Assembly: GCA_024699225.1 (NCBI GenBank) | Contig: JAILPZ010000062.1 | Coordinates: 60,358-124,357, forward strand | Source: Sphaerochaetaceae bacterium | Lineage (GTDB): Bacteria; Spirochaetota; Spirochaetia; Sphaerochaetales; Sphaerochaetaceae | Direction of reading: 5' to 3' | DNA length: 64,000 nucleotides | Part shown: positions 10,666 to 15,201 of the stretch, in pieces | Layout of the letters: each line of letters begins with the position of its first letter | How positions within the stretch are numbered: the first letter of the stretch is position 1 | Notes under the pieces: model-generated | Database searches by the model: none | The model's input: the letters and a program-made list of their open reading frames with translations, nothing else | What the model was told of the DNA's origin: nothing | Position numbers and translations under genes: made by a program

Positions 10666-11583
10666 TCAATTGCCTGAGTATACAGCAATAGTCCAACTTG
10701 AAGGTACTATTGAACCCGACGTCCAGCTACTATCTGCTACGCTTGAGTTTTTATAGAATGTTTTTGTTCCAGATGTATTAGAACCAGCACTTGTAAGCCA
10801 ATTATCAACATGCACACTCTGTATATTAGTTGTTGCAAGGCATGTAAGAGAAGTAAGATTTGAACAATTTTTAAACATTGAAGCATAACAACTATTGACT
10901 AATGATGCTGCGGGTAGTATAGGAGCCGTGGTGAGTACTGTACAACCATTAAACATAGAAATATAACAAGTCTGAGCTAATGTTGTAGCAGGAAGTTCAG
11001 GTGCTGCTGTAAGAGCAGTACAACCTGAGAACATACTTCTATAACAACTTTGTGACAAAGTAGTAGCCGGTAGTATCAGGTTAGAAGCATCAGTTAATTC
11101 TGTATCTCCGTAGAATAAACATGCAAAAGCATATATATGCATGTCCGTATCTGTAGCAAATGCACTTGAACTTAATAAACTCATAGCATTACCTGAAGCA
11201 GTATAAGGTTGATCAGCATCAATTTTAAAACATGTAGAATATGAACTGCCATTGCTTGTCTGAGTAGCATAAAGACTTACACTTGTACCAGCAGCAATTC
11301 CTGTAATTGTTCCGCTACTTGAGTCCAAGTCTGTCCAGGTTGTACCACCATCTGTTGAATACTTAACACTTCTATCAGTATAGTTTGAAAATGTTATAGT
11401 TGCACTACTACTATTTGTACTGAGGAAAGTAAGTCTCAATGGTATTGTTGAATAATCAATTGTTGTAGAACTATCATCAGAGGCTGAGTCATTCCAGAGC
11501 AAGTAGTCAACTTCGCCCTCACAGGCTACAAATGCAGTGAGAATGATTGAGATTAAAAGAATAACTGTAAATATTTTTTTCAT
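10666..11583 (-). CDS. BspA-like repeat lipoprotein
   Basis: lipobox TAFVAC; tandem LPATTLxxxCYxSMFxGCTxLTxAPx repeats. Confidence 0.75.
   Translation of the reverse strand: MKKIFTVILLISIILTAFVACEGEVDYLLWNDSASDDSSTTIDYSTIPLRLTFLSTNSSSATITFSNYTDRSVKYSTDGGTTWTDLDSSSGTITGIAAGTSVSLYATQTSNGSSYSTCFKIDADQPYTASGNAMSLLSSSAFATDTDMHIYAFACLFYGDTELTDASNLILPATTLSQSCYRSMFSGCTALTAAPELPATTLAQTCYISMFNGCTVLTTAPILPAASLVNSCYASMFKNCSNLTSLTCLATTNIQSVHVDNWLTSAGSNTSGTKTFYKNSSVADSSWTSGSIVPSSWTIAVYSGN
10840..11073 (-). repeat. three in-frame ~26-aa (78 nt) repeats
   Basis: LPATTLSQSCYRSMFSGCTALTAAPE / LPATTLAQTCYISMFNGCTVLTTAPI / LPAASLVNSCYASMFKNCSNLTSLTC. Confidence 0.85.
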
Positions 11584-12295: not shown

Positions 12296-13669
12296 TCAGA
12301 AGCTTCCGAGGTCGCCCGGGTGTGTGCCTTCTCTTGAATTCTCATTGTCTGTTGTGAAGACATAATCCTTACCGGGAAGAATTGCATTTGTGAGAATACC
12401 TACGATTGAGGCAATTGCAAGACCTGTAAGTGTTACACTTGCGCTTCCTACGTTGAAGGTAATTCCGCTTGTAAATCCAAGACCACATACCAGGATAAGA
12501 GCTCCAATAATGAGGTTTCTTGACTGTGTAAAGTCAACCTTGTTTTCAACAACGTTTCTGACTCCGATTGCTGAAATCATACCGTAGAGGATAAATGATA
12601 CTCCACCAACGATTGCTGTCGGAAGGCTGTTAATCAGTGCTGAGAACTTCGGGCAGAAGGAAAGAACTATTGCATAGACAGCTGCAAGTCTTACTACCTT
12701 CGGATCATAAACCTTTGACAGAACCAGAACGCCTGTGTTTTCACCGTATGTTGTGTTTGCAGGACCGCCGAAGAAGGCTGACAGTGCTGTTGCAAGACCG
12801 TCACCGAGAAGTGTTCTGTTAAGGCCCGGATTCTCTACAAAGTTCTCACCTACTGTAGCTGAGATAGCTGAGATATCACCAATGTGTTCCATCATGGCTG
12901 CAATTGCAATCGGTGCCATAACCAGGATTGCTGTTAAGTCAAACTTTGCAATTGAACCTGAGAAGTTTGTGCAGAACTGGGGAAGACCAATCCATGCTGC
13001 TTCTTTAACTGCTGTGAAATCAATGAGGTTTGCACCAAAGAGGTTTGCAATCAGAGCTACTACATATGAACCTACTACACCGAGGAGGATAGGAATAATC
13101 TTAATCATTCCCTTGCCCCAGATGTTGGCAACAATGATTATACCCATGGCAAGAAGTGCAAGCGGCCAGTTTGTTGCTGCGTTGGAAACTGCTGATGGAG
13201 CGAGGTTAAGACCAATTAAAATAATGATCGGTCCTGTTACAATAGGAGGAAGGAATCTCATGACCTTTCTTACGCCTACAACTTTCATGATCAGAGCAAG
13301 AACAAGATAAAGAAGTCCTGCTACTACAATTCCGCCACCGGCGTACTGAAGCTTTTCAGCGGCAGAGATTGTTGCGTACTTACCTGTATTCAGGGCTGCA
13401 ATTGCTGCATATCCGCCAAGGAAGGCGAATGATGAACCGAGGAATGCCGGAACTTTGAACTTTGAGATAAAGTGGAAAAGAAGTGTTCCGAGTCCTGCCA
13501 TCAGCAGTGTTGTCTGCATGGAAAGTGGAAGTCCGAAACCATTTACAAGAATCGGTACAAGTACTGTTGCTCCGAACATTGCAAAGAGATGCTGAAGGCC
13601 AAGAACCATCATCTTTGGCTTTCCGAGTACTGTTGCATCTTTAATGGGCTGGTTAGAAATTTTTGTCAT
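12296..13669 (-). CDS. uraA: uracil/xanthine permease (NCS2 family)
   Basis: FGATVLVPILVNGFGLPLSMQTTLLMAGLGTLLFH; AMMEHIGDISAISATVG; FFGGPANTTYGENTGVLVLSKVYDP. Confidence 0.93.
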   Translation of the reverse strand: MTKISNQPIKDATVLGKPKMMVLGLQHLFAMFGATVLVPILVNGFGLPLSMQTTLLMAGLGTLLFHFISKFKVPAFLGSSFAFLGGYAAIAALNTGKYATISAAEKLQYAGGGIVVAGLLYLVLALIMKVVGVRKVMRFLPPIVTGPIIILIGLNLAPSAVSNAATNWPLALLAMGIIIVANIWGKGMIKIIPILLGVVGSYVVALIANLFGANLIDFTAVKEAAWIGLPQFCTNFSGSIAKFDLTAILVMAPIAIAAMMEHIGDISAISATVGENFVENPGLNRTLLGDGLATALSAFFGGPANTTYGENTGVLVLSKVYDPKVVRLAAVYAIVLSFCPKFSALINSLPTAIVGGVSFILYGMISAIGVRNVVENKVDFTQSRNLIIGALILVCGLGFTSGITFNVGSASVTLTGLAIASIVGILTNAILPGKDYVFTTDNENSREGTHPGDLGSF

Positions 13670-13694
13670 ATTTCAACTCCTAAAATAGATTCCT

Positions 13695-13724
13695 AAAAAA
13701 AAGACAACCACAAAAGTGATTGTC
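13695..13724 (-). terminator. leader terminator (attenuator) upstream of uraA
   Basis: minus strand GACAATCAC-TTTT-GTGGTTGTC + TTTTTTTT, ending 26 nt before uraA ATG. Confidence 0.8.
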
Positions 13725-13799
13725 TTAAAAATCAAAACCAATAGAAAATAAGGGAGCAAGTCCAAATCCGCTTGTGTAGATCAAAGTACCAAGGTTCAT
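13725..13799 (-). CDS. putative 24-aa leader peptide MNLGTLIYTSGFGLAPLFSIGFDF
   Basis: AAGGAGGCAGCAGATG strong SD; stop codon abuts the attenuator hairpin; U-rich 3' half. Confidence 0.6.
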   Translation of the reverse strand: MNLGTLIYTSGFGLAPLFSIGFDF

Positions 13800-13896
13800 C
13801 TGCTGCCTCCTTAATTTCTAAGAAGGTAACCTATCAGAATTATGATTCTTTGAAAAGACCTGATCGGATGTTTTTTAAATTTTTTTTAATTTTCTT

Positions 13897-15201
13897 TTAT
13901 TTTATCCTTCTACACTCCATATAGTAGCGTTTCTCATTGGCCTCCCCCATAGAGAATGTCTTTCTTGGAAGAGCTCCATCCTTGATGATTGTGTCAAAGA
14001 AGGTCTCTTTATCTATGGCAGGAAGGAAGATTCCTATGTTGCCCTTCTCACTTCCAAGCTTGTCGGTAACATCAATTCCATGGATATAGTCAACTGTGTA
14101 TCCTTTTGAAATAAGAGAGTCGAGAATTCTCTGGATTGTACCTGCTGCAATATTTGACTTGGGATTCTTAATCCTTACATAGACATGCTTGTCTGCAGTG
14201 CAGTATCCAAATCCCTGTACCTTCTGGTCTTTGTTACGGGAATCAATGCAGTTCTTGCATTTGACTGTTTCATATTCAATTCCATCAGCATTCTTCTCAA
14301 GTTCCTTGATAAATACATCTTCAGGAACATTAAAGAGGACTCTGTGAATAGGCTCAAATACAAGACCCGGATCAAAGATATTCTCAAGTTCAACAAGACA
14401 GAATCTTGCAGGATGATTTTTCCTCTCCTCTTCTGAAAGACCTTTCTTTATATCTTCCCAGCAACTCTTAGCTGTAGCAAAGCTGTGGTTTCCGTCTCCC
14501 ATTGCAAATAAAAGAGGATTATCAGGATTCAGGTCTGCTGTAAGAGCTTCAAAACCTTCCAGGACAGTCTGAAGATCCTTCTCGTCGTTAACAAGGTAAG
14601 CTTCCAGCTTACCTCCGTTTTTCATAAGTTCTGTATCGTAAATCTTTGTAAGGGTGTCTCTTTTCTCATAAAGACTTTCAATAATCTTTTTCTTGTTGTC
14701 GGAAATGAGAACCATGATATGGGGAATCTCAAGTCCTGCATCCTTTCTGATTGCCTTTCTTGGCGGGATTCTTGAAAGAATGGTTCCTTCAGTAGCCCTG
14801 ATAAGGCTCTTTGAATCCTTTTCCCAGCTGTATCGATCAAGATCCAGTGCAGCCATCAGGCCAAGTCTTGATGTATTACCGCATGTTCTTTTAATAAGGA
14901 AGAAACAGTTTTCATATGTATCAAACAGGCCCTGTTTAATGTAGGAAGCCATTGTTCTGTTGATTTTTTCAATTCTCTGTTCGGAATCTCCGTCCTCAAG
15001 ATAACATTCAGGGAAGATTAAATGTAATGTTGAAGGACTGTCTCCCACATAGTCTTCAACATCTTTCCAGTATTCTTTTTCAGAGGTGTACTGGTCGCAT
15101 GCAACTACTGCCCACTTCTTAAGATTCGTATTTTTCTTAGGAATCATAATGTCTGCAGGTTTTAATCCGAGCTTAACAAATTTTTCAGAAACTAGTGCCA
15201 T
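13897..15201 (-). CDS. DUF1015 family protein
   Basis: LKPADIMIPKK...WAVVACDQYTSEKEYW; LLFAMGDGNHSFATAKS. Confidence 0.85.
   Translation of the reverse strand: MALVSEKFVKLGLKPADIMIPKKNTNLKKWAVVACDQYTSEKEYWKDVEDYVGDSPSTLHLIFPECYLEDGDSEQRIEKINRTMASYIKQGLFDTYENCFFLIKRTCGNTSRLGLMAALDLDRYSWEKDSKSLIRATEGTILSRIPPRKAIRKDAGLEIPHIMVLISDNKKKIIESLYEKRDTLTKIYDTELMKNGGKLEAYLVNDEKDLQTVLEGFEALTADLNPDNPLLFAMGDGNHSFATAKSCWEDIKKGLSEEERKNHPARFCLVELENIFDPGLVFEPIHRVLFNVPEDVFIKELEKNADGIEYETVKCKNCIDSRNKDQKVQGFGYCTADKHVYVRIKNPKSNIAAGTIQRILDSLISKGYTVDYIHGIDVTDKLGSEKGNIGIFLPAIDKETFFDTIIKDGALPRKTFSMGEANEKRYYMECRRIK

Follow-up and report, generated by a model that had tools for sequence, protein, structure and literature searches.

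A putative UTP-sensitive attenuator of the pyrBI type before an NCS2 permease gene in spirochaetes and Clostridia

The permease gene and its leader

The locus studied here raises the question of how a presumed uracil importer is controlled, and of whether the short stretch that precedes its gene is a regulatory leader or the plain end of the neighbouring gene. It lies in 64,000 nucleotides of DNA from a Sphaerochaetaceae bacterium (the window, i.e. the whole stretch that was analysed), in which the permease gene (12296..13669, minus strand, ATG at 13669, 457 aa) stands downstream of the leader and a DUF1015 gene (13897..15201, minus strand) upstream of it; the latter is also a neighbour in the spirochaete relatives and was not found at the Clostridial loci. 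The permease matches PF00860 with 283 bits and the NCBIfam uracil permease model with 319 bits, under the cut-off of 477 of that model, and its best matches among solved structures are uracil permeases. These matches point to an NCS2 permease closest to uracil permeases (UraA), with uracil as the presumed substrate. A second and more distant NCS2 permease is encoded elsewhere in the source genome (G000:C8:11125-12249). In the window itself, the minus strand at 10666-11583 encodes a predicted surface protein with a weak match, below cut-off, to the PARCEL repeat model TIGR02167.

An earlier note on this DNA had described, upstream of the permease gene, a Shine-Dalgarno sequence (SD), a 24-codon ORF with a U-rich end and a stop codon abutting a 9-bp hairpin followed by T8, and all of these are indeed present on the minus strand. 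The SD, AAGGAGG, occupies 13806..13812, and the leader ORF MNLGTLIYTSGFGLAPLFSIGFDF, of 24 codons plus TAA, occupies 13725..13799 (ATG 13799-13797, TAA 13727-13725). Its U-rich tail (13725..13764), in which T is enriched at all codon positions over the relatives, is the proposed UTP-sensitive pause tract. The intrinsic terminator, or attenuator (13695..13724), begins at the nucleotide following the stop codon and consists of GACAATCAC (13724-13716), the loop TTTT (13715-13712), GTGGTTGTC (13711-13703) and T8 (13702-13695); across relatives the sequence of the stem varies and its pairing is kept. As both A residues at the end of TAA can base-pair with T residues of the run, the hairpin may be of 11 bp and overlap the stop codon by 2 nt. 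The permease ATG comes 25 nt after the T-run, and not 26 nt as noted earlier. A candidate promoter (13828..13856, minus strand) is formed by TTTTCA (13856-13851), a spacer of N17 and TAGGTT (13833-13828), and would give a 5' UTR of ~22 nt.

This layout is not due to chance. Among the 206 terminator-like sites of 1.38 Mb of the source genome (~96% of its 1.44-Mb assembly), only that of the window is preceded by an SD-led short ATG ORF stopping at the hairpin, and no second copy with a strong SD and a stop at the hairpin was found in the same 1.38 Mb. When the intergenic stretch was shuffled 3000 times with its dinucleotide composition kept, the layout was never regained. T makes up 0.58 of the 36 nt that precede the hairpin of this leader, whereas the mean is 0.31 (sd 0.11), and 4 of the 206 sites reach as much as 0.58. 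When a scanner for the layout was run over 1.15 Mb of loci, 25 matches stood before permease genes and 3 elsewhere, E. coli pyrBI being among those 3. With a T threshold of 0.45 the scanner missed E. coli pyrBI, which served as the yardstick, and the threshold was lowered to 0.36; as the scanner was also written after the window had been seen, its counts measure specificity and are no independent discovery. Around pyrB, no convincing match of the scanner was obtained before Oscillospiraceae pyr operons (~300 kb in 20 regions). The sole pyrB case seen, read by eye, is L123 (genome G158, uncultured Clostridia), in which a similar SD-led U-rich leader ORF with a long hairpin at its end lies directly before pyrB.

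Conservation, geometry and origin of the layout

The layout precedes the permease gene at all 12 spirochaete loci with the same permease type (genera g1, g7, g15 and g21) and at 24 of the 25 Oscillospiraceae-type loci, the exception being L021, and an SD was found in each of these 36 leaders. The conservation check that the earlier note had proposed comes out in favour of its reading: SD, leader ORF and hairpin are kept together, whereas peptide and stem sequences diverge among relatives. The automatic pass caught 18 of the 24 Oscillospiraceae-type leaders, one of them with a wrong start codon, and the remainder were read by eye; two leaders (L010 and L065) never passed the terminator finder, and the codon, peptide and T-content statistics accordingly use 34 leaders. 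At the other loci, mostly of Lachnospiraceae, 8 of 54 meet the same loose criterion and none has a strong SD with a short frame. A second survey covered 201 genomes of a single Oscillospiraceae-type family. In the 70 loci that it supplied the scanner reported 29 matches, of which 23 were new, 5 had already been counted in the first set and 1 (L308) was false; 6 more leaders were recognised by eye. Counts of stop position, pause motif and SD pairing are based on 58 leaders. At one locus, L303, with a very short frame, the SD region seems to be the 5' arm of a terminator-like hairpin before the permease gene (GGGAAACGG...CCGTTTCCC T6), a possible variant in which ribosome binding by itself would block termination.

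These leaders are 17-42 codons long, with 45-101 nt from the ATG to the hairpin. In 58/58 the reading frame extends at least to the base of the hairpin before it stops, which was partly a selection criterion. Measured from that base, the stop codon ends 0-3 nt inside in 35 leaders, 6-20 nt inside in 18 and 37-80 nt inside in 5. The last five run through the hairpin, three of them (L012, L024 and L069) as far as the permease ATG. In these three the leader ends as ATGA on the permease start, so that translation of leader and permease could be coupled too. From the T-run to the permease start there are ~18-50 nt at most loci.

A promoter-like site TTGNNN-N17/18-TATAAT is present upstream of the 22 Oscillospiraceae leaders tested (22/22, p 0.02 or less against shuffles); its -10 box ends 26-36 nt before the leader ATG and its near-consensus form is TTGCNN-N17-TATAAT. 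The candidate promoter of the window has the same position and is weak, being no better than shuffles (p 0.57), and the sites of the other spirochaetes, in the same place, are mostly no better than shuffles either.

With regard to origin, the nearest permeases outside the family are those of Clostridia. A quick maximum-likelihood tree was built from 106 permeases. In it, the 12 spirochaete permeases (support 98) nest within the Oscillospiraceae leader clade, with a support of 93 at the fork joining the entire clade. Two changes of the label 'leader' are required on this tree, which would correspond to a single gain and a single loss. The stem GACAATCAC/GTG(G/A)TTGTC was seen repeatedly in both spirochaetes and Oscillospiraceae. 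Since the spirochaete genes lie inside the Oscillospiraceae leader clade, permease gene and leader were probably transferred together from Oscillospiraceae-type Clostridia to spirochaetes. The leader does not look like a spirochaete invention, gene and leader looking acquired as one piece.

Proposed UTP-sensitive attenuation and its closest alternative

We consider it probable that the leader is a translation-coupled, UTP-sensitive attenuator of the E. coli pyrBI type placed before a uracil-permease gene, as the earlier note had proposed. The conserved layout, the promoters upstream of the Oscillospiraceae leaders and the near absence of PyrR described below are in agreement with this reading, in which UTP would be the signal. 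Transcription would start just upstream of the leader. When UTP is ample, RNA polymerase would cross the U-rich tail and the hairpin before the ribosome closes up, the terminator would form and the permease would stay off. When UTP is low, polymerase would slow in the U-rich tail, leaving time for a ribosome to load on the leader and catch up; having reached the stop codon, at or beyond the hairpin base, this ribosome would cover the 5' arm and prevent the terminator from forming, and the permease would be made and uracil imported. Several points stand against this attenuator: the weakness of the spirochaete promoter, the presence of the leader in G151, a genome that bears PyrR, the runaway transcription ascribed to Bacillota, and, in spirochaetes, an excess of U over the early leader at synonymous sites that loses significance once Phe codons are set aside (p 0.28).

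Published data on coupling bear on these steps. In E. coli, termination falls from ~90% to <10% when the stop codon lies 5 bp instead of 28 bp ahead of the terminator (PMC4824070). Terminators that lie early in an E. coli coding region, within its first 100 bp, undergo little suppression, the ribosomes not yet having closed up, and leaders of the pyrBI sort regain coupling through pause sites (PMC4824070); termination would thus be the expected default here, relieved by a pause. Easy coupling is made less likely by the classing of Bacillota among the bacteria with runaway transcription, in which ribosomes usually do not follow polymerase, although B. subtilis polymerase pauses on T-rich sequence (PMC13323073).

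The composition of the leaders points to selection on the RNA. In 33/34 leaders the final 36 nt have a higher T content than the part that precedes them, and in the same set of 34 the tail shows an enrichment of U at each of the three codon positions. NNY codons end in T in 74% of cases in the tail versus 20% in the gene in Oscillospiraceae, and in 69% versus 43% in spirochaetes, with U favoured over C at synonymous sites where either could serve; since the leader sequences are related and not independent, the p-values are too small. All 34 leaders can be read in frame 0 as far as the hairpin, against 12 for frame +1 and 16 for frame +2, a comparison that is only a guide because ORFs were partly selected for reaching the hairpin. 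Similarity among the 34 leader peptides is barely above that of shuffled ones (0.105 versus 0.076), and the leaders share no conserved sequence except the SD and the T-run. The NusG pause motif TTNTTT occurs in 35 of the 58 tails, where 32.6 are expected from shuffles, and is not enriched beyond composition; its form with a non-T middle base is mildly enriched (28 against 20.4 expected, sd 3.5).

Folding suggests a second property of the tail. In the window, a long hairpin is predicted between the SD region (13820-13798) and the tail (13769-13742), spanning 13742..13820 of the minus strand, which we regard as a lead; the fold of this leader gives a z of -4.3 with the terminator included. The mean z over 34 leaders folded without their terminator is -1.6. 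Compared with shuffled tails, the SD-tail duplex of the 58 leaders has a mean z of -1.29 (se 0.16), and 31% reach p < 0.05. Some pairs alter on both sides within groups of relatives, in alignments that are short and in which several pairs break. The E. coli pyrBI fold also pairs the SD with the tail, but not beyond shuffles (p 0.24). The U-rich tail tends to pair with the SD of its own leader, and gating of the SD by the tail is a lead to follow: in many leaders the tail, once transcribed, could close the SD, so that a ribosome may have to load before polymerase has left the tail, a constraint that would make the race sharper.

This pairing also feeds the alternative that survives best, namely a translation-coupled attenuator of the same anatomy in which the signal is not UTP but ribosome loading or general translation capacity, the tail being mainly an arm that closes the SD. 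It would account for a pairing in excess of composition, for the lack of enrichment of TTNTTT and for an occurrence among Bacillota with their runaway transcription. On the other hand, the pairing is individually significant in a third of the leaders or fewer, U is preferred to C even at synonymous sites open to either, and the element controls a uracil permease in lineages without PyrR. We judge this alternative unlikely. The attenuator of the pyrBI type may also take a self-locking form, which we put forward tentatively: the tail would be both a UTP-sensitive pause tract and the arm closing the SD, low UTP would hold open a brief window for ribosome loading, and the device would have spread with the permease gene from Clostridia to spirochaetes, standing in for PyrR in a phylum with runaway transcription.

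Compared with known systems, the leader resembles E. coli pyrBI (pyrL) by its SD-led ORF, its U-rich tract, its intrinsic terminator just before the gene and a ribosome that must reach the hairpin; the same scanner finds both, the pyrBI fold likewise pairs SD with tail, and the five leaders that cross the hairpin do so as pyrL does. It differs from pyrBI in that the gene encodes a uracil importer instead of aspartate transcarbamylase, in that the hosts are Clostridia and spirochaetes and not Proteobacteria, and in that most leaders end at the hairpin base and are shorter. According to the earlier note this would be an independent instance on a transporter gene outside proteobacterial pyrBI, and the layout does precede an NCS2 permease gene in these two lineages. 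In the attenuation of E. coli pyrE behind rph, the ribosome ends shortly before the attenuator and the leader is the full upstream gene; the stop-at-hairpin geometry is alike, with a dedicated short ORF here in place of that gene. The B. subtilis vmlR and tlrB attenuators share the short leader ORF, pausing, the intrinsic terminator and a host among Bacillota (PMC9226507), but they sense antibiotics through ribosome stalling, with an antiterminator fold. No description of the present leader was found in the open-access literature, which is weak evidence of novelty as subscription papers were mostly outside this scope, and neither uracil nor uraA is named in a survey of premature terminators from 2010.

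If the pyrBI-type reading is true, UTP-sensing translation-coupled attenuation, a textbook case for E. coli pyrBI, extends to Clostridia and gut spirochaetes and acts on an importer rather than on a synthesis gene. For Bacillota, whose polymerase is considered to run ahead of the ribosomes, it would offer a direct test case of how transcription and translation are coupled, and the 58 natural variants could separate the parts played by pause tract, stop position and SD pairing.

Other readings, PyrR and pyrimidine supply

Several other readings of the leader were weighed. The first is a plain terminator of the upstream gene with an ORF present by chance, the permease being transcribed from a separate start downstream. 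The spirochaetes do have a same-strand gene upstream, and the earlier note had named the DUF1015 gene as the one that the hairpin might merely terminate. That gene is absent from loci at which the hairpin persists, so the hairpin is not merely its terminator, and this candidate was rejected. More generally, the layout is kept next to other upstream genes, it is unique among the 206 terminators, the near-consensus Oscillospiraceae promoters sit between the upstream gene and the leader, and the short distance from T-run to permease start leaves just ~18-50 nt at most loci. A plain terminator is in our view very unlikely.

Amino-acid attenuation, in which the Phe-rich end of the leader would report on charged Phe tRNA (or on another amino acid), is suggested by Phe being the commonest residue of the last 11 codons, with at least one in all leaders but one. 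However, the enrichment of U extends to non-Phe codons: after removal of the Phe codons, the contrast between tail and gene remains (p 1e-39 in Oscillospiraceae and 0.005 in spirochaetes), and that between tail and early leader at synonymous sites is significant in Oscillospiraceae only (p 0.28 in spirochaetes). Furthermore, the hairpin would stay uncovered if the ribosome stalled upstream of it, the main alternative fold is that of tail and SD with no conserved antiterminator seen, and Phe has no link to a nucleobase permease of the uracil type. Attenuation by Phe is therefore disfavoured, and we hold it for highly improbable. Loading of Rho on an untranslated pyrimidine-rich tail would likewise couple leader translation to expression, and B. 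subtilis Rho does prefer pyrimidine-rich RNA, aided by T richness (PMC13323073). The same paper describes an excess of C over >150 nt, whereas the tail is of ~40 nt and U- rather than C-rich, with an intrinsic terminator directly after it, and little credence can be given to this reading either.

PyrR-dependent attenuation of Bacillota pyr and uracil-permease genes has in common with the present leader the controlled gene and the metabolic logic, and it is used in sister lineages: other genera of the same family (g11) carry PyrR-like leaders on this gene, and both genomes searched have pyrR beside the permease. It depends, however, on the PyrR protein and on the RNA loop to which this protein binds, and both are lacking here. 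No PyrR above the family cut-off was found in any of the 13 spirochaete genomes that carry the same type of permease, which include the source genome (81% complete) and G086, whose sequence ends before the leader; among the 25 Oscillospiraceae-type genomes of the first set, G151 is the only one with PyrR. In 63 further genomes, PyrR was found in 0/29 with the leader and in 11/34 without it (Fisher p 5e-4), the 29 including 6 leaders read by eye of which one (L303) is doubtful. The absence of PyrR alone does not predict the leader, since the six Lachnospiraceae-like genomes searched have neither. As the earlier note had remarked, no PyrR-type anti-antiterminator is apparent: by eye, no PyrR binding loop was seen in the leaders, though it is visible at the g11 loci, and in the Rfam covariance-model search of the leader the best match had 21.5 bits against a gathering score of 60. 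With no match near a gathering score, PyrR above cut-off in a single leader-bearing genome and no shared sequence beyond SD and T-run, a leader RNA that binds PyrR or a pyrimidine ligand, or that belongs to an Rfam family, is scarcely credible. Sister lineages that control the same gene by PyrR or by the leader would constitute a natural experiment in regulator swapping.

The pathway genes place the permease in its context. By family cut-off, pyrB was found neither in the source genus (4 genomes) nor in G085, G024 and G125, and is present in G133; pyrF above cut-off was found in 0/9 leader-bearing spirochaetes, with a model that misses some Clostridia that do have pyrB. Since pyrB and pyrF are missing by these cut-offs, uracil import is probably the pyrimidine supply of the source genus, which is likely auxotrophic for pyrimidines as far as an imperfect pyrF model and an 81% complete source assembly can indicate. 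Elsewhere in the source genome, G000:C33:10745-11089 (L161 1387-2451, minus strand) encodes a protein of 354 aa. Its C-terminal half resembles uracil phosphoribosyltransferase (UPRT), with a match far below the cut-off; the protein is probably a long and divergent UPRT, the enzyme that one would expect alongside a uracil importer.
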